DNA of 64,000 nt from Actinacidiphila cocklensis (lineage in GTDB: Bacteria > Actinomycetota > Actinomycetes > Streptomycetales > Streptomycetaceae), in contig NZ_CAJSLV010000046.1 of the NCBI RefSeq assembly GCF_907177275.1, positions 1 to 64,000 of the forward strand, read 5' to 3'. Of this stretch, positions 1 through 43,759 are shown piece after piece. Positions within the stretch are counted from its first letter, which is position 1. Each line of letters starts with the position of its first letter. The position numbers were made by a program, and so were the translations under genes. The notes beneath the pieces are model-generated. The model made no database searches and was not told the origin of the DNA. It saw only the letters and a program-made list of their open reading frames with translations.

Positions 1-1577
1 GGTCGGCGCAGCCCGAAGCGGCGCCCGGTGCCGGGCTCCGCGGGGTGCAGGACGACGCCGAGGACGGCGGCGCCGGCGGCGTCGACCAGTTCGCGTACGC
101 GTTCCAGGTCGGCGCGGTGCACGGCCCGCGGGTCGCACACCACGACGACGCCGTCGACGCGGTCGGCCAGCGCGACGGCGTCGGCGTAGGCCAGGACGGG
201 CGGCGCGAGGACGACGACGACGGAGCCGGGCTCGTCGGCCTCGGCGAAGAGCCGTCCGGCCGGGGAGGAGGTCAGCGCGCGGGCGACGTTGCGCACCCGG
301 CGTCCCGGCACCAGGTCGAAGGAGCCGGACTCCCCCGCGTCGATGGGGATCTGCAGCCCCGCGGGCCAGCCGCCCTCGCCGAGGCCCGGCGCCCTGGCCC
401 AGCCGGGCCGGGCGCCGTCCGCGGTGCGCAGCCGGGCGGACAGCGCGGGGGTGCGCAGGTCGGCCTCGACGAGCAGCACCTCCATGCCCATCTCGGCGAA
501 GGAGGCGGCCAGGTTGACGGCGACGGCCGCGGGCGTCTCGCCGGTGCCGCGCGGGGCGACGACCAGCAGGCGGCGGCTCTCGGAGAAGCGCTTGTCGTGG
601 GTGAGCCGGAAGGCGACCGCGCGGTACTCCTCGGCGAGCCGCCCGTCGCCGCGCCCGCCGGCGAGCAGGGTGCCGGTGCCGTTCGCGGCGGCCCGGCCGC
701 GCAGCCGGGGCAGGGTGCCGAGCACGGGGGCGCCCAGCGCGCGGGTGACCTCGGCGTCGCTGCGCACGGTCGGGTCGAAGACCAGCCGCACCCAGGCCAG
801 CAGCAGGCCGAGCGCGATACCGACGCCGCCGCCGAGGCCGAGCATCATCGACAGCCCGGGTCCCGAGGGCGCGGAGGGTGCGATGCCCGGCTTGATGACC
901 ACGCCGGGCGTGGTGTCCAGGGCGCGCAACCCGCTGATGTCGGAGTTGAGCTGGGTGATCCGGCTGAGCAGGTTGGTCTGCGAGGAGACCAGGGTGCCGA
1001 CGACCTGGCTGCTCTTGGCGCGGGCGATCTGGTCGAGCAGGTCGTTGCGCTGGGTGACCATCGGGTCCAGCTGGGACTGGTAACTGGTCACCATCCGCGC
1101 GACGGTGGCCTTCGTCTGCGCCTGCCGGTCGTCCAGGTAGGCCTTGGTGAAGGCGTTCACCCAGTCCGCGGCGTGCTCTGCGGTGCCGGCCGTGCAGGTG
1201 AAGCGCAGCACGAGGGTGTTGGGCGGGTTGGTCACCTGGAGGCACTTGGACATCGTGGTGACCGGCGACCCCGCGGTCTTCGCCGCCGCGGCGGCGACGG
1301 TGCTGCTCAGCGCGCTCTGCCGCTCGGTGCCGATGTCGATGTTCTTGTCGGCGGTGGCCCCGGCCACGAAGGGGTCCTCGATGGCGGCCCTGACCCGCAC
1401 CTCGCTGGTCGCCGTGTAGCTGTCGGCGCCGCTGAAGGCGAGGTAGGCGCCGCCGAGCAGGCCGATCAGCAACCCGGTCACCAGCAGCGCCCGGTAGCGG
1501 ATCAGCTGGCGGAACTGGTCGCGCAGCAGGTCGGGTTCGTCCTGCGACGGCTGCTCTGCCCGCGTCACGTCGGTCAC
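1..1577 (-). CDS. Wzz / BY-kinase-like polysaccharide chain-length protein (3' end cut by window edge)
   Basis: The reading frame opens at a GTG whose first four bases overlap the stop of the upstream glycosyltransferase (GTGA overlap) and is still open at base 1, giving about 525 residues. Seen: a first membrane segment near residues 30-50 (LLVTGLLIGLLGGAYLAF), a Wzz-type periplasmic part with coiled-coil character, a second membrane segment near residue 255, then a P-loop ATPase of the CpsD/BY-kinase class. The Walker A equivalent reads RGTGETPAAV, so the expected lysine is Glu; Walker A-prime reads LLVEADLR and the Walker B region reads VVVLAPP without the usual acidic residue. Family role: control of exopolysaccharide chain length and export. 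The degenerate ATP site suggests weak or absent kinase activity. The C-terminal tyrosine cluster, if present, lies outside the window. Confidence 0.85.
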   Translation of the reverse strand, partial: MTDVTRAEQPSQDEPDLLRDQFRQLIRYRALLVTGLLIGLLGGAYLAFSGADSYTATSEVRVRAAIEDPFVAGATADKNIDIGTERQSALSSTVAAAAAKTAGSPVTTMSKCLQVTNPPNTLVLRFTCTAGTAEHAADWVNAFTKAYLDDRQAQTKATVARMVTSYQSQLDPMVTQRNDLLDQIARAKSSQVVGTLVSSQTNLLSRITQLNSDISGLRALDTTPGVVIKPGIAPSAPSGPGLSMMLGLGGGVGIALGLLLAWVRLVFDPTVRSDAEVTRALGAPVLGTLPRLRGRAAANGTGTLLAGGRGDGRLAEEYRAVAFRLTHDKRFSESRRLLVVAPRGTGETPAAVAVNLAASFAEMGMEVLLVEADLRTPALSARLRTADGARPGWARAPGLGEGGWPAGLQIPIDAGESGSFDLVPGRRVRNVARALTSSPAGRLFAEADEPGSVVVVLAPPVLAYADAVALADRVDGVVVVCDPRAVHRADLERVRELVDAAGAAVLGVVLHPAEPGTGRRFGLRR

Positions 1578-7058: not shown

Positions 7059-8153
7059 TCAGATCCCGGCGGGCAGCGCCCGGGCCAGCCGGGTGGCCGC
7101 GGCGGCCCGCGGCGCGCTGCCCTGGGTGTGCCGGACCGGGTGGACGGTGTTGGCCAGCAGCACCAGGAAGGCGCCGGACGCCGGGTCCAGGACCAGGCAG
7201 GTGCCGGTGAAGCCCGTGTGGCCCAGGGCGCCGCGCCCCGCGAGCTCGCCCATGAACCAGGGCTGGTCGGTCTCGAAGCCGAAGCCGGGCGTCAGCGGCA
7301 GGGTGCCGTCGAGCAGGGCGGCGGCGAAGAGCGCCAGGTCCCAGGCGGTGGAGAAGAGCCCGGCGTGGCCGGCGACCAGGCCCATGGCGTACGCGTTCTC
7401 GTCGTGGACGGTGCCGCGCACCATGCCGCGGTCGAGCTTGCCCCAGGGCCGCCGCTGGTCCTCGGTCGCCGCGGTGCGGCGCTGCCAGGACGGCGGCGGC
7501 GCGAAGCGGGTGGAGCGCATGCCCAGCGGCCTGGTGATGCCGTCGGCGACCAGCCGGTCCAGCGGGCGGCCGGTGACCTGCTCCAGCACGGTCTGGGTGA
7601 GCAGCAGGTTGAGGTCGGAGTAGCAGCGCTGCTCGCCGGGCGGGGTACGGGGCTGCTCGGTGGCCAGCGCGGCGAGCCGCTCCGCGGGGCCGGGGAGGTC
7701 GTAGAGCGGCAGCTCGGGTTGCAGCCCCGAGGTGTGGGTGAGCAGGTGGCGCAGGGAGATGCCGGGCTGCAGACCGGGGACGTACGCGCTGACCGGGGCG
7801 TCCGGGTCCAGGGCGCCGGCCTCGATCTGCTGGACGGCCACGGTCGCGGTGAAGAGCTTGGTGAGCGAGGCCAGGTCGAACACCGTTCCCTGCCGCATCG
7901 GCACCCGCTGCCCGGCCGGCAGCTCCACTCCCCGGCCGGACGGCGCGTCGTACGACCCGTAGCGCACCGCCCAGCCGACCGCCTCGTGCAGCGCGACGAC
8001 ACGGCCGCGCCCGGCGAGCACGACCGCGCCCGCGCACCACGCGGGGCCGGCCGCCGTGTCCAGCGCGGCGGTCAGCTCGGGGACGATCCTGCCGATCTCG
8101 TCGGCGTCGAGACCCGCCTCAGGGCAGGTACCTCTCGACAGCGGCGGGGCCAT
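7059..8153 (-). CDS. Serine hydrolase, beta-lactamase class C / penicillin-binding family
   Basis: 364 residues. The catalytic SxxK motif is DLASLTKLFTAT near residue 98; the second motif is CYSDLNLLL (YxN-type) near residue 182; the third, usually KTG/HxG, reads LGHTGFTG near residue 300. This is the layout of D-Ala-D-Ala carboxypeptidase/esterase-type class C proteins. No signal peptide or membrane anchor is visible, so it is probably cytoplasmic. The ATG at 8153 lies inside the end of the small upstream gene (35-base overlap), and no usable later start precedes the first strand of the fold, so this start is kept with some doubt. The natural substrate is unknown. Confidence 0.85.
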   Translation of the reverse strand: MAPPLSRGTCPEAGLDADEIGRIVPELTAALDTAAGPAWCAGAVVLAGRGRVVALHEAVGWAVRYGSYDAPSGRGVELPAGQRVPMRQGTVFDLASLTKLFTATVAVQQIEAGALDPDAPVSAYVPGLQPGISLRHLLTHTSGLQPELPLYDLPGPAERLAALATEQPRTPPGEQRCYSDLNLLLTQTVLEQVTGRPLDRLVADGITRPLGMRSTRFAPPPSWQRRTAATEDQRRPWGKLDRGMVRGTVHDENAYAMGLVAGHAGLFSTAWDLALFAAALLDGTLPLTPGFGFETDQPWFMGELAGRGALGHTGFTGTCLVLDPASGAFLVLLANTVHPVRHTQGSAPRAAAATRLARALPAGI

Positions 8154-35922: not shown

Positions 35923-37824
35923 TCAGGAGCCGGTGGCGATCCAGCTGACCGACGTGGCCGTGGTGTTGGTGCGGGTCAGCCAGATGTCGACCTGGGTCGG
36001 GGTGCGGCTGCCGATGCCCACTCCGGTGACCTCGTTGCCGGGGAGGCTCGTCTCGGCCGTGGCGACGACGACCGGGGCCACGGTGAACAGCCCGGCCGGG
36101 AAGGTGACGGTGACCTTCGTGGGGGTGTTCGCCGCACTGGGGGTGATCACGATTCTTCCGCCGGCGGTGACCGTCGCCACTCCGACCGGTGTGCCGTCCA
36201 CGAAGTTGTCGCCGCACGTGGTCGGGGCGGCGCCGGTGAAGTCGTGGAAGACGGCCGCCTGCCCCTGCGGTGCGGAGATGGCCAGCTCGCACAGCGGGTT
36301 GGAAGCGGGGTCGACGCCCAGCCACGTCGAGGCGACCAGGCCGCTGCCGGCGGTCCCGGTGACGCTGCTGGCGCAGTCGTTCTGCGAGATGACCGTCCGC
36401 GCGACGTCCCGGCACGAGAAGGCGTTCGTGAAGGACGTGCCCATGATCTTGTTGCCGGTCAGCACGCACGCGGAGGCCCCGTTGAGCCGGATCGCGGAGG
36501 TGACGTCGGAGTACACCCTGTTGTCCTTCACGGTGACGGACTCGACGGCGTACTTCGCGTCCGCCGAACTCTCGCCGATCTGGATGCAGTGGTTCGCCGC
36601 GGTCTGGACCTTGATGACCTCGTTGTTCGAGATGCTGCCGACGAGGCAGGCCGAGAGGTAGATCCCGTTGGAGGACGACCCGTAGATCTGGTTGCCGTCG
36701 ATGTCGACGTAGGACCAGCTCCCGCTGCTGGCCGGGCCGTCCGTGGTGACCGGGTCCACGCGGATACCGCCGCGGGCCGCGTTCTTGACGATGTTGTTGC
36801 GGACGATGAGCCGGGAACCGGACACGCTGGGTCCCAGCCCCGCGTAGATGCCGTGGCCCCCCGGACTCTCGACGAGGTTGCCTTCGATGATCGACTCGGA
36901 CCAGGAGTAGGCGTGGATCGCCGAGTCCAGAACGTTGTCGGCGACGTTGTCGAGTACGCGGATACGGCTGTGCGGTCCGGTTCCCTGCGTGTGGCAGTCC
37001 ACCAGCCGCCCCCACGGCCCCGACTCCCCGGCGACCGGTGAGGCTCCGGCATAGCAGTTCTGGATCGTGACGTCGTCGCACGGGTTCGCGTCGCCCGACT
37101 CGGTGCCGCTGTCGATCTGGACCGGGCCGCGGGGGAAGGTGCTGCTGCCCTGCACGTAGCCTTCGAACCGGCAGTTCTCGACCCGTATGTGCTGGATGCC
37201 CTGGATATCGATCGCGTGGAAGGACGCGATGTTGCGGATCGTGACATCGCGGAACAGGTAGTTGCGGCCGTGGTTGATCGTGAAGCCCTGCGTCGCGGTG
37301 GACTTGCCGTCCCACGTGCCGCCGACCACCCCGATGTCCCGGTGGGCGGTGTAGCCGCTGTAGGAGCCGTAGCCGCCGTCACCGGAGTCGTTCATCAGGG
37401 TCGCCGTCTTCCCGCCCCCCATGAACAGGTAGGCGCCGTAGGCGACGACCGTGGTGCCGGAGAAGACGGCCAGCGTGGCGGACAGCTTGTACGAGTACCC
37501 ACCGGGAATGAGCACGATCCCGCCGTGCGCGGCTTTCGCGGCGTTCAGCGCCCCCTGGATCGCCGCCGTGTCGTCGGCCGACCCGTCACCCACCGCCCCG
37601 TAGTCGAACGGGTTGAACAGCCCGGACTGGCTGCCGGTTGCGGCGTCCGCGTGCTGCTCGCTCAGCGCGCCGAGCACGCCGACGCCGGCGGCGGTGGCGA
37701 GCCCGCCGCGCCACAGCATCCCGCGCCGGCTGAGACCGGCCGTGTTCCCGTCCTCCCCCGACGGTCCCGCGGACGCGCGGTCGGTGGGGGTGGTGTGCTT
37801 CGAACTCTCATGACGACGGCTCAC
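35923..37824 (-). CDS. Tat-exported parallel beta-helix (pectate lyase-like) protein
   Basis: 633 residues starting at GTG with GGAGGAG nine bases upstream. The N-terminus contains LSRRGMLWRGGLATAAGVGV, a twin-arginine signal. The mature start FNPFDYGAVGDGSADDTAAIQGALNAA is the Pectate_lyase_3/phage tailspike-type beta-helix opening. From ~100 to ~500 comes a long ladder of strands with VTIRNIASFHAIDIQGIQHIRVENC, VRNNIVKNAARGGIRVD and VTVKDNRVYSDVTSAIRLNG phrases, i.e. right-handed helix coils. The last ~120 residues form a separate beta domain. A polysaccharide lyase or hydrolase role is likely, but catalytic residues cannot be assigned. Confidence 0.87.
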   Translation of the reverse strand: MSRRHESSKHTTPTDRASAGPSGEDGNTAGLSRRGMLWRGGLATAAGVGVLGALSEQHADAATGSQSGLFNPFDYGAVGDGSADDTAAIQGALNAAKAAHGGIVLIPGGYSYKLSATLAVFSGTTVVAYGAYLFMGGGKTATLMNDSGDGGYGSYSGYTAHRDIGVVGGTWDGKSTATQGFTINHGRNYLFRDVTIRNIASFHAIDIQGIQHIRVENCRFEGYVQGSSTFPRGPVQIDSGTESGDANPCDDVTIQNCYAGASPVAGESGPWGRLVDCHTQGTGPHSRIRVLDNVADNVLDSAIHAYSWSESIIEGNLVESPGGHGIYAGLGPSVSGSRLIVRNNIVKNAARGGIRVDPVTTDGPASSGSWSYVDIDGNQIYGSSSNGIYLSACLVGSISNNEVIKVQTAANHCIQIGESSADAKYAVESVTVKDNRVYSDVTSAIRLNGASACVLTGNKIMGTSFTNAFSCRDVARTVISQNDCASSVTGTAGSGLVASTWLGVDPASNPLCELAISAPQGQAAVFHDFTGAAPTTCGDNFVDGTPVGVATVTAGGRIVITPSAANTPTKVTVTFPAGLFTVAPVVVATAETSLPGNEVTGVGIGSRTPTQVDIWLTRTNTTATSVSWIATGS

Positions 37825-38218
37825 TCCGGTGCTCCTCCTCGAAGGCGAACGTTCATCGCGACCGCGGCACGCGCGACGAGGAGAAGGCCGGCCGCGCTGC
37901 GAGCGCGCCGGATGGTGCCGGTGAACGCCTACCGGAGAACGACCAGGCCGGTGCTGTGCGGGGCACGCAGCGCAGAGCCCGCCGCGACCGCAACTCCCCC
38001 TGTCTTCGCGCCGCCCCCTCCGATTCCCCCGCCCGCCCCGCCCCCCTCGCCGCACAGCACATCTGACGCCACGACATGCTCAACGGACTCGTACATCCGT
38101 ACCACCGCGGTTGCCCGCCGAAACCAGCCGCGGACTCACCGAGACCAAGGCGTGCGCGGAACCGGGCGGCCGTGCCCCTCCCCAGGGTGGTGGGTGCCGG
38201 GGTACGGCGACCGGGCGG
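37825..38218. other. Intergenic region, nothing recognised
   Basis: About 390 bases between the beta-helix gene start and the epoxide hydrolase 3' end. Open frames here are low-complexity Arg/Pro-rich GC artefacts. The beta-helix promoter must lie in it; no clear hexamers or operators were seen. Confidence 0.5.
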
Positions 38219-39448
38219 TCACCGTAGCTTGCGGTAGGTGGTGCGGAGGTCGTGGATCCAGGCTTCGGGGTTCTCGTAGGGCCCGAAGTGGCCGCCTTTG
38301 TCGTGGACGTTGACGTCGCGGATGTCGGCGTAGAACTGGGCGCCGCCGGCTTTGAAGATCGCGATGCGTTCTTCGGCGGTCTCGGCGCCGGGCGAGGCGT
38401 CGCCGAGCAGGAAGGTGAAGCCGGCAGGGGCCTGGACGTAGGGCTTCAGGTCGTTGACAGGCTTCGGCGGGTAGAGGCTGGCGTTCTTGTAGGCGCGGAT
38501 GGAGGAGCCGATGGCCTGGTTGACCCAGTAGATGGTGGCGAAGGTGAGGATGTCGTCGGCGGGCCAGGTGGCGTCGAAGTCGGCGTTCCGGTCGCTCCAG
38601 GTCTTCCAGCGCTTGAGGACCCATGCCAGCATGCCGGCCGGGGAGTCGTTCAGCCCGTGGGTGATGGTCTGGCCGTCGAGCAGGTGTGCTGCCACGTGGG
38701 AGACGTAGGTCTTGTTGCGGCGCAGGATCCGGGCCCTGGCGGCCTCGGGCAGGTCCTCGGTGCGCTGACCGCCGGTCAGGTCCCAGAAGCGGTCGCCCTG
38801 GAACATCGCGGGCGGCATCTCGTTGCCGAGGTGGATGCCGTAGAGGGAGTCGGCGTACTTGTGTCCGAGCCGGGCGCCGACGAGTGCGCCGTAGTCGGCC
38901 GCGCCGACGCCGTACCTGCCGTAGCCGAGCACGTCGGTCATCAGGGTGTGGAAGCGGTCGGCCATGTCGGCGTAGTTCTCGCGGGGGTTGGCCAGGGGGG
39001 TGGAGAAGCCGAAGCCGGGCAGGGAGGGGATGATCACGTCGAAGGCGTCGGCGGGGTCGCCGCCGTGTGCTGCGGGGTCGGTGAGCGGGCCGATGACCTT
39101 GTGCCAGTGGTGGTGGGTCCACGGCCAGCCGTGCATCAGGAGCAGCGGGATCGGCGCCGGGCCCTTGCCCCGTTCGTGGATGAAGTGCACCGGGCTGCCG
39201 TCGACGTCCAGGCGGTGCTGGTTGAAGGCGTTCAGTTTCGCCTCGGCGGCCCGCCAGTCGTAGCCGTCGGCCCAGTACTCGATCAGGGGCCTGAGGTAGG
39301 CGGTGCTCAGACCGTAGGTCTCGTCGTCGTTCTCCGGGTCGGACGCGAAGCGGGTGGCCTTCAGCCGGGCACGGAGGTCGTCCACGACCTCCTGCGGGAC
39401 GTCGACGACGAACGGCTCCAGATCACGGGGGGAATGGGTGCTGCTCAC
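38219..39448 (-). CDS. Epoxide hydrolase (EHN domain alpha/beta hydrolase)
   Basis: 409 residues. N-terminal EHN domain (~8-115): FVVDVPQEVVDDLRARLKATRF. Alpha/beta hydrolase core: oxyanion motif LLMHGWPWTHHHW, nucleophile region GVGAADYGALVGARLG where family members have GGDWGS (nucleophile Asp kept), a lid with paired Tyr candidates, and the catalytic His in HDKGGHFGPYENPEAW. This is the juvenile-hormone/microsomal-type soluble bacterial epoxide hydrolase, opening an epoxide to a diol. It lies 57 bases downstream of the SnoaL-like gene on the same strand, probably one operon under the TGGAC-N6-GTCCA operators. Confidence 0.92.
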   Translation of the reverse strand: MSSTHSPRDLEPFVVDVPQEVVDDLRARLKATRFASDPENDDETYGLSTAYLRPLIEYWADGYDWRAAEAKLNAFNQHRLDVDGSPVHFIHERGKGPAPIPLLLMHGWPWTHHHWHKVIGPLTDPAAHGGDPADAFDVIIPSLPGFGFSTPLANPRENYADMADRFHTLMTDVLGYGRYGVGAADYGALVGARLGHKYADSLYGIHLGNEMPPAMFQGDRFWDLTGGQRTEDLPEAARARILRRNKTYVSHVAAHLLDGQTITHGLNDSPAGMLAWVLKRWKTWSDRNADFDATWPADDILTFATIYWVNQAIGSSIRAYKNASLYPPKPVNDLKPYVQAPAGFTFLLGDASPGAETAEERIAIFKAGGAQFYADIRDVNVHDKGGHFGPYENPEAWIHDLRTTYRKLR

Positions 39449-39505: not shown

Positions 39506-39964
39506 TCAGTACTCGAGGTCCATCCGGACCCGGGTCAGTACGAGCTCGGCGATCTTCCAGACCCCGTCGACCTTGGCGAACCGGGGGCGGTAGTGCCCGA
39601 AGCCGTGCATGGAGGTGAACCGCGGCCTGCCGTCGGGCCCGGTACTCGCGGGGCGTTCGATCAGGTCCTCCATCGCCCACACCCCGCGGGCGGAGGTCTC
39701 GGACTCGACGTCGATCTCGTCGGAGAACAGGTGGTGGACCACCACTGCCTCGGGGCCGACGTTCGCCGGAATCGACTCGGCGATCTGCGACCGGCCCTCC
39801 ATGCGGGCCGCGACGGAACCGTCGACGTTGTGCGGGGTGAACGTGCCGTCGGCGGTGAAAAGCGACGCCAGGTCTTCCCAGCGCTGCAGGTCGGCGTTGT
39901 AGACGTAGCGCGCCATCAGGCGGCGCAGGTCCTCAATCGTGCTCAGGCGTTCGATGACATCCAT
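39506..39964 (-). CDS. SnoaL-like / NTF2-fold protein
   Basis: 152 residues with the cone-shaped NTF2 layout: IEDLRRLMARYVYNADLQRWEDLASLFTADGTF at the N-terminus, GRSQIAESI, VVHHLFSDEIDVE and a final strand HYRPRFAKVDGVWKIAELVLTRVRMD. The family includes ring-opening cyclases, scytalone dehydratase-like and limonene-epoxide hydrolase-like enzymes. ATG 39964 is chosen because GGAGG stands eight bases upstream; an upstream ATG (39988) lacks one. Sitting next to an epoxide hydrolase and an exporter, it may help process or detoxify a small molecule. Confidence 0.87.
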   Translation of the reverse strand: MDVIERLSTIEDLRRLMARYVYNADLQRWEDLASLFTADGTFTPHNVDGSVAARMEGRSQIAESIPANVGPEAVVVHHLFSDEIDVESETSARGVWAMEDLIERPASTGPDGRPRFTSMHGFGHYRPRFAKVDGVWKIAELVLTRVRMDLEY

Positions 39965-40067
39965 CGGTCGTACCTCCGTCGTTCTCATCACCCTGCGGCC
40001 GTCCTCGGCATGGATCGGTGCTCTTCCACGTTGAAAGGGCGGTGAGGCCACCCAGGGAGCTCATTTC

Positions 40068-40122
40068 TGGACTTGCCGGTCCATTGAAGTGTGTACCGCT
40101 TGTGACTGGACCGTCAAGTCCA
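40068..40122. promoter_or_regulatory. Operator pair A (TGGAC-N6-GTCCA)
   Basis: TGGACTTGCCGGTCCA (40068-40083) and TGGACCGTCAAGTCCA (40107-40122) are both perfect TGGAC-N6-GTCCA palindromes, 39 bases apart centre to centre, i.e. near integral helical turns. They lie between the SnoaL gene start and the TetR remnant and would control leftward transcription and possibly the regulator itself. Confidence 0.8.
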
Positions 40123-40195
40123 ATCTTGGGCCGTACCGCGGCGGGATCTTTGACAGAGAGCACCCTGCGGCCCGTACGGCCCCGCGGGGCGGTCA

Positions 40196-40544
40196 CGGAC
40201 GATCCGACTTGCTCATCGCCGTGGCCGAGCACGAAGCCGAACAGGTCCTTGAGGCTCAGCAGCCGCACCTCGGCGGCCTGACGGCCTGGGAGTCCTGGCA
40301 GAAGTGGCGTGAGGCCGTGATCAACCGCCTGATCAACCGCTACGCGGAACCGGGACAGCGCTGCCCGCCGGGCAGTCTCACGTCCGAACTCGGAAAGTCC
40401 TCACCCCAGGCGCGCGCGGTGGCATCCAAGCCGTACGACGCATGGAAGGAGGCGCCGCTGCGCGGCGTGGAGGCGCTCACGTCCGCACGCCGCCTCGCCC
40501 GGAGGGCGGCACATACCCGGCCTCGGCGGCTAGAATGGACTTGA
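40196..40544 (+). pseudogene. TetR-family regulator remnant lacking the DNA-binding domain
   Basis: Readable part: SDLLIAVAEHEAEQVLEAQQPHLGGLTAWESWQKWREAVINRLI, then RCPPGSLTSELGKSSPQARAVASKPYDAWK. This is the start of helix 4 onward in TetR proteins of the kind with a C-P-x-GSL ligand pocket. The ~55 residues before it, which should contain the helix-turn-helix, are replaced by unrelated GC-rich sequence within ~75 bases of the operator, so an internal deletion is likely. The C-terminus also stops ~50 residues early after PLRGVEALT. It cannot bind DNA as it stands. Confidence 0.75.
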
Positions 40545-40584
40545 CGGTCCTATTTTTGTAGGCATCATTGGACTATGAAGTCCA
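40536..40584 (+). promoter_or_regulatory. Operator pair B and leaderless promoter of MFS gene
   Basis: TGGACTTGACGGTCCT (40536-40551, one end mismatch) and TGGACTATGAAGTCCA (40569-40584, perfect) repeat the TGGAC-N6-GTCCA design, 33 bases apart. TTGACG (40541-40546), a 17-base spacer and ATCATT (40564-40569) form a promoter whose transcript would begin at about the ATG (40575), which itself lies inside the second palindrome. Repressor on either site would block transcription. Confidence 0.75.
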
Positions 40585-42059
40585 TTCTAGCGGCCCCGAA
40601 CAACTCCGTGCCGACGCCTGAGCCCCGCGCGCGCAGCGCAGGAATCACGCTCGCCACTCTGTCCATTGCGACCGTGTCCTACGCGCTGGTGCAGTCGATG
40701 GTGAATCCCGGGCTGGAGGCGCTGCGCGGACGCGTGCACACCGACCAGGTCGGAGTGAGCTGGGTACTCACCGCGTTCCTGCTGTCCAGCGCTGTTCTCA
40801 CTCCCGTGCTGGGGCGGCTGGGAGATCGGGTCGGCAAGCGCAGCACCATGATCGCCATGCTCGGGGTCCTGGCGGCCGGCAGCGTGATCGCGGCGCTGGC
40901 CACCAGCCTGCCGGTGCTGGTCGTCGGCCGTGTGGTCCAGGGCGCGGGAGGTGCGACACTCCCGCTGGCTTTCGGCATCGTCCGTGACCTGGTGCCCCGG
41001 GCGAAGGTCGGGGCCACCGTCGGGATGATCGCGGCGACGAGTTCGGTGGGCGGCGCGATCGGCGTGCTCGTGACGGGCCCGATCATCACCCATCTCGGTG
41101 TGCCCTGGCTCTTCTGGCTTCCGGCCATCGCCAACGCCATCGTGGCCCTTGCCGTCTTCCTGTTCATCCCCCGCACCGGGTCGACGGCCGAGGGGCGGAT
41201 GAACTGGCCGGCGGCCCTCGCACTCGCCGCGGCGCTGGTTCTGCTGCTGCTTCCCCTGAGCCTCGGAGAGGAGTGGGGCTGGGGATCGGCCAGGACGCTG
41301 GTCCTGTTCGCCGCCGCGATCGTGGCCGGAGGAATCTGGGCCACGGTGGAGACCCGCTCCCGCCACCCGCTGATCGACATGCGGGTGTTCCGGCTTCGAC
41401 CGGTGTGGACCGCGAACGTCGCCTCGTTCCTCTTCGGCGTCACCCTGTACTCGTCCTTCGGCTTCATCCCGTCGTTCCTGCAAGTCCCGACCAGTACGGG
41501 CTACGGACTCGGCAAGTCGATCGCGGTCTCCGGCCTGTTGTTCCTGCCGATCACGGTGACCCAGTTGATCAGCGGCTTCGCCGCCGGCCCCCTGGCCAGG
41601 ATCATTCCGACGAAGATCCTGCTCATCCTGGGATCCGTCCCCGTGATCGTCTCCTTCTCACTGATCTCGGCATTTCATGAGCAGGTGTGGCAGATCGTTG
41701 TCGCGACCTCCATAGGCGGGATCGGGTTCGGTATCGGGCTCTCCGCCCTCTCGGCGGTGGTGGTCCACGCCGTCCCCGCCGAACACACCGGCGCGGCCAG
41801 CGGGATGAACGCGAACATCCGCACCATCGGCGGTGCGGTCGGCGCCGCCCTCGTCTCCAGCGTCCTCACCTCCAGCACCACCAGCGGGGGATTCCCCAGT
41901 GACGGCGGATACACCGCGGCATTCGCACTGCTGGCCGTGGCCGCGGTCGCCGGACTGGCCTCCTGTCTGCTGATCCCGGGCCGCAGGCCCACGGTGCACA
42001 GCCAGGGCACCCCCGCGCAGCGCGTCGCCGAACCCACTGACCAGCGCAGCCCCTTCTGA
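40575..42059 (+). CDS. MFS exporter, DHA2/14-segment type
   Basis: 494 residues with about 13-14 membrane segments. Motif A loop GRLGDRVGKRSTM follows segment 2; motif C-type VGGAIGVLVTGPII is in segment 5; WLFWLPAIANAIVALAVFLFIP and the paired central helices match the EmrB/QacA-like branch, exporting drugs or antibiotics with protons. No Shine-Dalgarno precedes the ATG and the predicted transcript start coincides with it, so translation is probably leaderless. The operator overlapping the start codon and the neighbouring broken TetR gene point to a former TetR-regulated efflux unit. Confidence 0.9.
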   Translation: MKSILAAPNNSVPTPEPRARSAGITLATLSIATVSYALVQSMVNPGLEALRGRVHTDQVGVSWVLTAFLLSSAVLTPVLGRLGDRVGKRSTMIAMLGVLAAGSVIAALATSLPVLVVGRVVQGAGGATLPLAFGIVRDLVPRAKVGATVGMIAATSSVGGAIGVLVTGPIITHLGVPWLFWLPAIANAIVALAVFLFIPRTGSTAEGRMNWPAALALAAALVLLLLPLSLGEEWGWGSARTLVLFAAAIVAGGIWATVETRSRHPLIDMRVFRLRPVWTANVASFLFGVTLYSSFGFIPSFLQVPTSTGYGLGKSIAVSGLLFLPITVTQLISGFAAGPLARIIPTKILLILGSVPVIVSFSLISAFHEQVWQIVVATSIGGIGFGIGLSALSAVVVHAVPAEHTGAASGMNANIRTIGGAVGAALVSSVLTSSTTSGGFPSDGGYTAAFALLAVAAVAGLASCLLIPGRRPTVHSQGTPAQRVAEPTDQRSPF

Positions 42060-42719: not shown

Positions 42720-42757
42720 CGGGGTGTCCTCTTCCGTTCTGTTGGCTTCAGCGAGTT

Positions 42758-42812
42758 GGTTCACTTCGGCGGGTCTGGTCACTTCAGCGGGTCTGGTCAC
42801 TTCAGCGGGTCT
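42758..42812. repeat. Three tandem 18-bp repeats at the EamA / NAD(P)-binding gene junction
   Basis: GGTCACTTCAGCGGGTCT occurs exactly at 42777-42794 and 42795-42812, with a diverged copy at 42758-42776 and further half-copies either side. It spans the EamA stop codon and reads as EVTRPA repeats in the downstream frame. Repeat number therefore changes the spacing or the possible N-terminal extension of the NAD(P)-binding protein. Confidence 0.85.
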
Positions 42813-43759
42813 GTTCGCTTCGGTGAGCGGGTGGGTGCGGGGAGCTGCCCCGCGACGAGGGCGGCCAAGGCCAGGGCGAACCCGAGGAGTTGGACCAGCC
42901 CCAGGGTCTGGCCGAGCACGGCGGCGCCGAGGACGGCGGCGACCAGCGGCGAGAGCAGGCCGAGCAGCGCCGCGGAGGTGACCGGCAGCGTGGTGACGCC
43001 CTGGAACCACAGGACGTAGGTGATCAGCCCGCCCACCAGCCCCAGCCACAGGTAGCCGAGGGCGGCCTTCGGGCCGATCTCCGGCGGCGCCCCCTCGACG
43101 AGGAAGGTGACGGGCAGCAGGAAGAGGCCGCCCGCGGTGAGCTGCCAGCCGGCGAAGGCGGTGGGGCTGACGCCGGCCGGGCGCCCCCAGCGCCGGGTGA
43201 GCGTCACGCCGAGCGCCATCGTGGCCGCGCCGGCCAGGCCCGCGGCGATGCCGACGCCGTCGAGCGCCGCGTTCGGGCCGATCACCACCAGGCCGACGCC
43301 GGCAACGCCGACCACCCCCCACAACAGCCGCCGGCCGGAGAGGCGTTCACCGAGCACGGCGACGGCCAGGAAGGCGACGACGAGCGGCTGCGCGGCCCCC
43401 AGGGTCGCTGCCACGCCGCCCGGCAGCCGCTCGGCGGCGGTGAACAGCAGCGGCAGGAAGAGCCCGATGTTCAGCACCCCGAGGGCGGCGGCCTTCCCCC
43501 ACCACGCGCCGCGCGGCAGCGTCCTGGTGAAGGCGAGCGCGATCAGTCCCGCGGGCAGCGCCCGCAGCAGGCCCGCGAACAACGGGTGCCCGTCGGGGAG
43601 GAATTCGGTCGTGACGATGTAGGTCGTGCCCCACACCGAGGGCGCGAGGGCGGTCAGCGCGATACGCGGCAGGTTCGCGGGGCGGGCCGCCCCGCCGCTT
43701 CCGCGGACCCCGCCGCCCCCACTGCCCCCGCCGGCCCGCTGGAATGTCTGGCTTGTCAT
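42797..43759 (-). CDS. EamA-family DMT transporter (drug/metabolite exporter)
   Basis: 320 residues with ten membrane segments in two EamA repeats: first ALAPSVWGTTYIVTTEFLPDGHPL..., ending ATLGAAQPLVVAFLAVAVLGERLSGRRLLWG; second GVTLTRRWGRPAGVSPTAFAGWQL..., ending SPLVAAVLGAAVLGQTLGLVQLLGFALALAAL. The N-terminal tail is Gly/Arg-rich. Such carriers export amino acids, purines or other metabolites. It is divergent from a LysR gene with an 87-base gap, the standard arrangement of an exporter and its regulator. Confidence 0.9.
   Translation of the reverse strand: MTSQTFQRAGGGSGGGGVRGSGGAARPANLPRIALTALAPSVWGTTYIVTTEFLPDGHPLFAGLLRALPAGLIALAFTRTLPRGAWWGKAAALGVLNIGLFLPLLFTAAERLPGGVAATLGAAQPLVVAFLAVAVLGERLSGRRLLWGVVGVAGVGLVVIGPNAALDGVGIAAGLAGAATMALGVTLTRRWGRPAGVSPTAFAGWQLTAGGLFLLPVTFLVEGAPPEIGPKAALGYLWLGLVGGLITYVLWFQGVTTLPVTSAALLGLLSPLVAAVLGAAVLGQTLGLVQLLGFALALAALVAGQLPAPTRSPKRTDPLK

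Follow-up and report, generated by a model that had tools for sequence, protein, structure and literature searches.

Operators around a TetR remnant in Actinacidiphila cocklensis and a paralogue that might act on them

What regulates a set of genes whose operators persist, yet whose local repressor gene has lost its DNA-binding domain? This question is raised by a 64,000-nucleotide stretch of Actinacidiphila cocklensis DNA (hereafter the window), in which a broken TetR gene lies between two pairs of palindromic sites. The initial annotation offered two answers: either the genes are now expressed constitutively, or another TetR protein has taken over the sites. We have found a candidate for such a takeover, a full-length paralogue encoded on another contig, and constitutive expression stays as its rival.

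Operators and the genes they precede

Four sites that match TGGAC-N6-GTCCA surround the TetR gene, all of them listed without strand. The two on the left, TGGACTTGCCGGTCCA at 40068-40083 (the downstream member of the pair) and TGGACCGTCAAGTCCA at 40107-40122, are exact and precede the operon for a SnoaL-like protein and an epoxide hydrolase. The two on the right precede the gene for an MFS exporter and comprise TGGACTTGACGGTCCT at 40536-40551, which has one mismatch at its last base, and TGGACTATGAAGTCCA at 40569-40584, which is exact. The motif search agrees with the initial annotation, which counted four palindromes with one mismatch among eight half-sites, and the positions of open reading frames and domains bear out its placement of one pair before each operon. 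Exact copies of the motif within the window occur at 40068, 40107, and 40569 only, and the SnoaL-side pair (40068 and 40107) was also retrieved by the tandem-composite search described below.

Sites with at most one mismatch number four in a 601-bp segment, whereas a first-order Markov null gives a mean of 0.022 (20,000 simulations; largest count 2). When two mismatches are allowed, the whole window contains 88 matches versus 35 in shuffles, which indicates that shuffles understate the background. Other half-sites also form clusters elsewhere in the window (4-7 inverted copies within 520 bp); nearly all of these half-sites are composed of G+C only, and TGGAC is joint ninth by cluster size. The case for operators is built on position and comparison rather than on the motif count. 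We also rejected operator survival as proof of selection: at a rough rate taken from the decay of the TetR remnant, 2.9 changes are expected in 40 half-site bases and one is seen (P(<=1) = 0.21).

Domain searches identify the SnoaL-like protein (SnoaL_4; 39506-39964, minus strand), the 409-aa epoxide hydrolase (EHN plus alpha/beta hydrolase; 38219-39448, minus strand), and the 494-aa EmrB/DHA2-like MFS exporter (40575-42059, plus strand). The probable SnoaL start, ATG at 39964, was placed by comparison with a relative in genome G224, which begins with MDAIERLSTIEDLRRLMARYV, versus MDVIERLSTIEDLRRLMARYV in the window. On the minus strand, operator 40107 reads TGGACTTGACGGTCCA and contains a TTGAC -35-like box that points at SnoaL. 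Also present in the window are a long minus-strand frame at 35923-38055, secreted-looking and labeled by eye as beta-helix/pectate-lyase-like from its motif FDYGAVGDGSADDTAAIQGAL, and short tandem repeats at 42745-42815 with a unit like CACTTCAGCGGGTCTGGT, likewise seen by eye.

The MFS-side pair is predicted to be an operator-promoter. A sigma-70-type promoter-like site, TTGACG-16-CATCAT, lies at 40541-40568 on the plus strand; this is a consensus match and no proof. It is the only one found in 39950-40620 (shuffles give a mean of 0.1), and the scan of the same interval gave no promoter-like match on the SnoaL-facing minus strand. The TTGACG box falls within operator 40536, the ATG of the MFS gene forms bases 7-9 of palindrome 40569, and the transcription start predicted from the promoter-like site coincides with this start codon. 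The -10 candidate CATCAT, at -12 to -7 with TTGACG 16 bp upstream, keeps AnnnT but not the first T. Leaderless expression is described in PMC3160421 as common in Actinobacteria, with a -10 box resembling TANNNT some 12 bp upstream of the start codon. Judged from its sequence, the layout of the MFS operator-promoter would be compatible with leaderless expression. The presence of this start codon and -35-like box inside operators goes beyond what the initial annotation had described, as does the point decay of the TetR remnant reported below. Operator 40536 and its T-run can also be read as a weak terminator-like hairpin at 40537-40559 (5 pairs; shuffles mean 0.3).

Among 13 tandem operator pairs from the window and related loci, eight have a start codon at this same position that opens a long frame (the MFS side of the window, L086, L087, L088, L090, L091, L097 with GTG, and G017). 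It is absent from four (L089, G297, G237, and the SnoaL side of the window). At the L093 pair of S. spinoverrucosus the start codon is there and the frame is broken, and this MFS gene is not counted as leaderless because it is frameshifted. The frameshifts that break this orthologue (L093 5001-6394) might be error or real. The first palindrome carries TTGAC in 8 of these 13 pairs (the exceptions are L087, L090, L093, L097, and G237), and therefore the box is not universal. At locus L211 (G017:C23), the ATG of a tandem operator on the reverse strand (~7594-7610) opens a frame, MSSNPEPAHV..., that leads straight into an epoxide hydrolase near residue 60. The N-terminus of this hydrolase seems to have been replaced by an exporter-like start, perhaps by a deletion that joined a truncated hydrolase gene to this promoter and start codon.

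The TetR remnant

Only the core of the ligand-binding domain is left of the TetR gene between the operator pairs (40195-40485, plus strand, ends approximate). In blastn comparisons, DNA homology to intact TetR loci begins at ~40195-40218 and in most cases ends at ~40466-40492, and upstream of ~40195 blastn shows no homology to intact TetR genes. The start, the helix-turn-helix (HTH), and the C-terminus are missing by this DNA-level comparison, as had been proposed earlier for the latter two. At the protein level, the remnant aligns to residues 57-158 of a 198-residue paralogue encoded on contig C85 of the same genome (61% identity, E 9.1e-32; 61-65% across the protein middle), and the alignment halts ~40-51 residues short of the paralogue's end. 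The frame from GTG 40089 to 40544 matches no Pfam or NCBIfam model, neither upstream homology nor a Pfam match points to an HTH, and the LmrA/YxaF-like C-terminal domain PF21993 was not found in the remnant. A shifted-frame HTH was considered and rejected, as inspection by eye of all six frames of 40051-40560 revealed nothing HTH-like.

The open frame runs to 169 codons, and 91 remnant residues are free of stop or frameshift. The core has also been mutated. The remnant differs at 5 of 30 columns that are invariant among 14 close relatives, and two of these changes are leucine to proline; in a leave-one-out control on the relatives, 0-3 invariant columns (of 30-33) are changed. A wider-family test on columns conserved at 95%, which is a weak test, finds the remnant to deviate at 1 of 17. 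Furthermore, a near-perfect 12-bp tandem duplication (40317-40340, plus strand) adds four residues that, by alignment, are not in any of the 14 closest full-length relatives.

Comparison with other loci indicates how much has been lost. The TetR gene of G237, which has the same divergent TetR/SnoaL-epoxide hydrolase layout, carries its own operator ~250 bp from the SnoaL pair. The remnant in the window begins only ~72 bp past operator 40107, which argues that the start, the HTH, and probably the gene's own operator were removed. On the other side, the distance from the conserved core to the MFS-side operator is ~120 bp shorter in the window than in S. albicerus. The spacer beside the deletion point holds a 9-bp inverted repeat, GGGCCGTAC, at 40128-40136 and 40174-40182, which may have arisen by chance or be left over from the deletion. 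A tree with the remnant and the paralogue has poor resolution (of its 17 inner branches, 5 are starred), and neither is firmly placed.

A TetR subfamily and its operator motif

To which regulators does the motif belong? We pooled 85 loci with TetR relatives, or 70 without duplicates, and included the C85 paralogue. Near-full-length relatives were defined by E < 1e-20 and an alignment that starts by residue 30 and reaches residue 150. All 1024 five-base half-sites, inverted and with a 6-bp gap, were then scored in the 200 bp upstream of these relatives. Exact TGGAC-N6-GTCCA precedes 53 of the 70 and ranks first, whereas the next-best half-site scores 6 and the mean over all half-sites is 0.09. 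With one mismatch allowed the count is 55, versus 21 for the next half-site. Among relatives of at least 60% identity, 11 of 14 have the exact motif and 12 of 14 have it with one mismatch. Of all 70, 15 lack a site: L007, L191, and 13 that are more distant. Although the relatives are not independent of one another, their inner six bases vary widely while the half-sites are constant. Because of this constancy and the count of 53, we conclude from sequence comparison that the motif belongs to this LmrA/YxaF-like TetR subfamily.

Our searches of the open-access literature, whose coverage leaves out most subscription journals, gave no match for the IUPAC motif string, nothing directly on a TGGAC-N6-GTCCA operator, and nothing seemingly relevant on TGGACTTG with TetR and Streptomyces, which does not prove the motif to be new to the literature. 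With this motif, a large actinobacterial subfamily of LmrA/YxaF-like TetR proteins, encoded near exporters and detoxifying enzymes, has a well-supported operator that should help to predict regulons and to build biosensors.

The strict tandem composite of operators is found in 5 of 394 family genomes, compared with 0 of 394 for the reversed control. A close TetR (E <= 1e-58, with the best 8 first-look candidates per genome scored) is present in 6 of the 394, and these include 4 of the 5 composite genomes (hypergeometric P 7.6e-8, rising to 4.0e-6 when the own genome is left out). This overlap owes much to the adjacency of composite and TetR gene, and therefore it shows pairing rather than trans action. 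The close-TetR genomes without a strict composite, G024 and G177, have near-miss composites. In the fifth composite genome, G224, the best TetR relative is 39% identical, lies ~2.3 kb from the composite, and has its own copy of the motif.

TetR genes stand beside SnoaL, epoxide hydrolase, and/or MFS genes in Streptomyces albicerus (L086), S. spinoverrucosus (L093), Saccharopolyspora soli (L097), Actinoplanes solisilvae (L090), Paractinoplanes maris (L087), G237, and G297. Like the window, these loci have related exporters and/or enzymes and the same operators, with tandem pair starts ~31-37 bp apart (39 bp for the SnoaL-side pair of the window). Unlike the window, they keep a full-length TetR gene next to the targets.

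The closest MFS orthologues come from eight genomes, each of which carries a TetR of 66-76% identity; L092, a 52% Sphingomonas relative without operators, was left out of this set. The TetR gene is beside the unit in five. In the other three, NRRL S-340, P. deccanensis, and S. dioscori (L088, L089, and L091), the operators are kept and the close TetR lies beyond the 5-kb flanks. NRRL S-340 (G396) is no clean trans case because a 45% TetR relative is encoded ~3 kb from its MFS gene. S. dioscori is the cleanest case of operators without an adjoining close TetR. As in the window, its epoxide hydrolase (78% identity) and MFS (66%) genes diverge around kept operators at L091, and no TetR gene lies between them. 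It differs from the window in that we saw no TetR remnant in the gap, and its close TetR is at G399:C4:232506. A second operator pair in S. dioscori (L091 955-1017), located before another epoxide hydrolase that is 56% identical, suggests a multi-operon regulon.

Candidate regulators of the unit

A genome search for an intact TetR homologue, which the initial annotation had proposed, gives one close full-length protein (E <= 1e-8) in this draft assembly of 134 contigs, encoded at G000:C85:961-1587. There are 85 first-look TetR candidates in the genome, and the next best that was scored, C58, has 30% identity. The C85 protein contains a TetR_N helix-turn-helix (PF00440, 29.5 bits; cut-off 24) and an LmrA/YxaF-like C-terminal domain (PF21993, 30.3 bits; cut-off 27), and matches no NCBIfam model at its cut-off. 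Its HTH, TSTSKSQLFHYFP, is nearly the same as the TATSKSQLFHYFP of relatives encoded next to the same targets. The recognition region SKSQLFHYFP is common to much of the wider subfamily, and therefore it is no proof of C85 specificity for the window sites.

Palindromic operators are located at the paralogue's own gene and at a neighboring gene, an arrangement characteristic of LmrA/YxaF-like regulators. One exact site, C85:962, falls just before the probable TetR start, and the other, C85:1596, precedes an SDR gene. The latter reads TGGACTTGCCAGTCCA, which differs by one base from window site 40068 and is letter-for-letter the SnoaL-promoter operator of G237. Both exact sites are single, with a one-mismatch site 67 bp before C85:962; within its own genome, the strict tandem composite is confined to the window.

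The bare motif shows no enrichment across the genome, with 51 places versus 52 for a reversed control. Fifty of the 51 exact places were examined, and five of these are the three in the window and the two at C85. Of the other 45, 40 fall within coding-like frames that stay open for 100 codons or more, and one further place lies inside a 648-aa ORF, which makes 41 of 45 coding-like; the other four (L220, L233, L245, and L251) are ambiguous. The coding-frame test is blunt: operator C85:962 also scored as coding-like, with a frame open upstream of the TetR start, and therefore start-proximal operators elsewhere could be missed. A second site (at most 2 mismatches, within 70 bp) accompanies 7 of the 45 places, none of which has a TTGAC box. 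With one mismatch, TGGACTTGNNNGTCCA gives 22 strand matches in the genome and 22 in the control; three extra TGGACTTGNNNGTCCA sites at C1, C80, and C34 were rejected, being inside open frames. From these genomic places we put forward no further regulon member, and further members are neither claimed nor excluded.

We lean toward the explanation that the C85 repressor controls the SnoaL/epoxide hydrolase/MFS unit in trans, and consider it reasonably probable. The ancestral unit would have been self-contained and probably ligand-inducible, serving detoxification and export, with an LmrA/YxaF-like TetR protein as its repressor. The local gene for that repressor has been destroyed, through loss of its 5' part (start, HTH, and probably its own operator) and 3' end and through mutation of its core, and the four operators would have stayed usable. 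We infer that the C85 protein binds these sites and represses both operons in trans, in addition to its own gene and the SDR gene. On the MFS promoter, both the -35 box and the +1/start codon would lie under a pair of TetR dimers. A ligand that is probably aromatic, and polyketide- or flavonoid-like, would release the operons when bound by C85, and the SDR, SnoaL, epoxide hydrolase, and exporter might thereby be joined into one response. Because the MFS-side sites double as -35 box and start codon, part of their sequence may be kept for these roles.

It is also tempting to speculate, with somewhat more doubt than conviction, that a regulator takeover is in progress. The operator-promoter module would have outlived its local repressor and been captured by a divergent paralogue, such that the ligand of the C85 SDR cluster would now control the unit. 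Loci of the S. dioscori type might represent the finished state of this process, in which the targets no longer have a TetR gene next to them.

Perhaps the unit is instead constitutive, with the local repressor gone, nothing bound to the operators in vivo, and the sites merely uneroded. The remnant's decay looks recent, given its 91 residues without stop or frameshift and its 5 changed columns of 30, so intact operators are unsurprising (P = 0.21, as above), and a promoter-like site persists at the MFS gene. However, the paralogue that the genome encodes is full-length, has a near-identical HTH, and shares the operator motif, and some relatives retain operators with a close TetR beyond the 5-kb flanks. 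Constitutive expression is unlikely in our view, but it deserves to be taken seriously. Binding of the palindromes by a less closely related TetR, or by a regulator of another kind, is an improbable alternative. The genome's many first-look TetR candidates would provide for it, as would the 39% relative that accompanies the same composite in G224, but C85 is the sole close relative in the own genome and the motif tracks the subfamily.

The break in the TetR gene might also be due to sequencing or assembly error or to a laboratory mutation, as the assembly is a draft; this is very improbable given that two lost ends, a tandem duplication, and several invariant-site replacements are atypical of error. 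Least probable is a remnant that is still produced from its open frame and either sequesters ligand or interferes with the paralogue as a dominant-negative partner, because it lacks the HTH and the C-terminal end that in TetR proteins carries the dimerization helices, has two prolines in place of invariant leucines and a 4-residue insertion, and would have to begin, at the earliest start listed, from GTG 40089, which falls between operators 40068 and 40107 in a frame without a Pfam match.

With control by C85 as the preferred reading, these orphan operators offer a testable case in which one genome holds a broken repressor with its four old sites and a full-length paralogue with two sites of its own. 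The closest known parallel is provided by LmrA and QdoR (YxaF) of Bacillus subtilis. In work attributed to Hirooka in 2007, LmrA and YxaF reportedly control one regulon jointly, as paralogous repressors with common operators. An MFS exporter is reportedly among the targets of that regulon. The C85 paralogue shares the Pfam C-terminal family PF21993 with LmrA/QdoR, and the YxaF structure 1sgm is among 7 PDB matches, although the similarity is low (31.4 bits). PMC8481877 describes two QdoR operators at the qdoI promoter and one at qdoR, and the release of QdoR from DNA by quercetin. A target promoter with two operators is thus common to qdoI and the window unit, and here, too, the same operator motif is found for both regulators. 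The systems differ in that only one repressor can be functional here, the window gene being broken and hence a pseudogene, in that the operator is TGGAC-N6-GTCCA, and in that the MFS target is actinobacterial and possibly leaderless.
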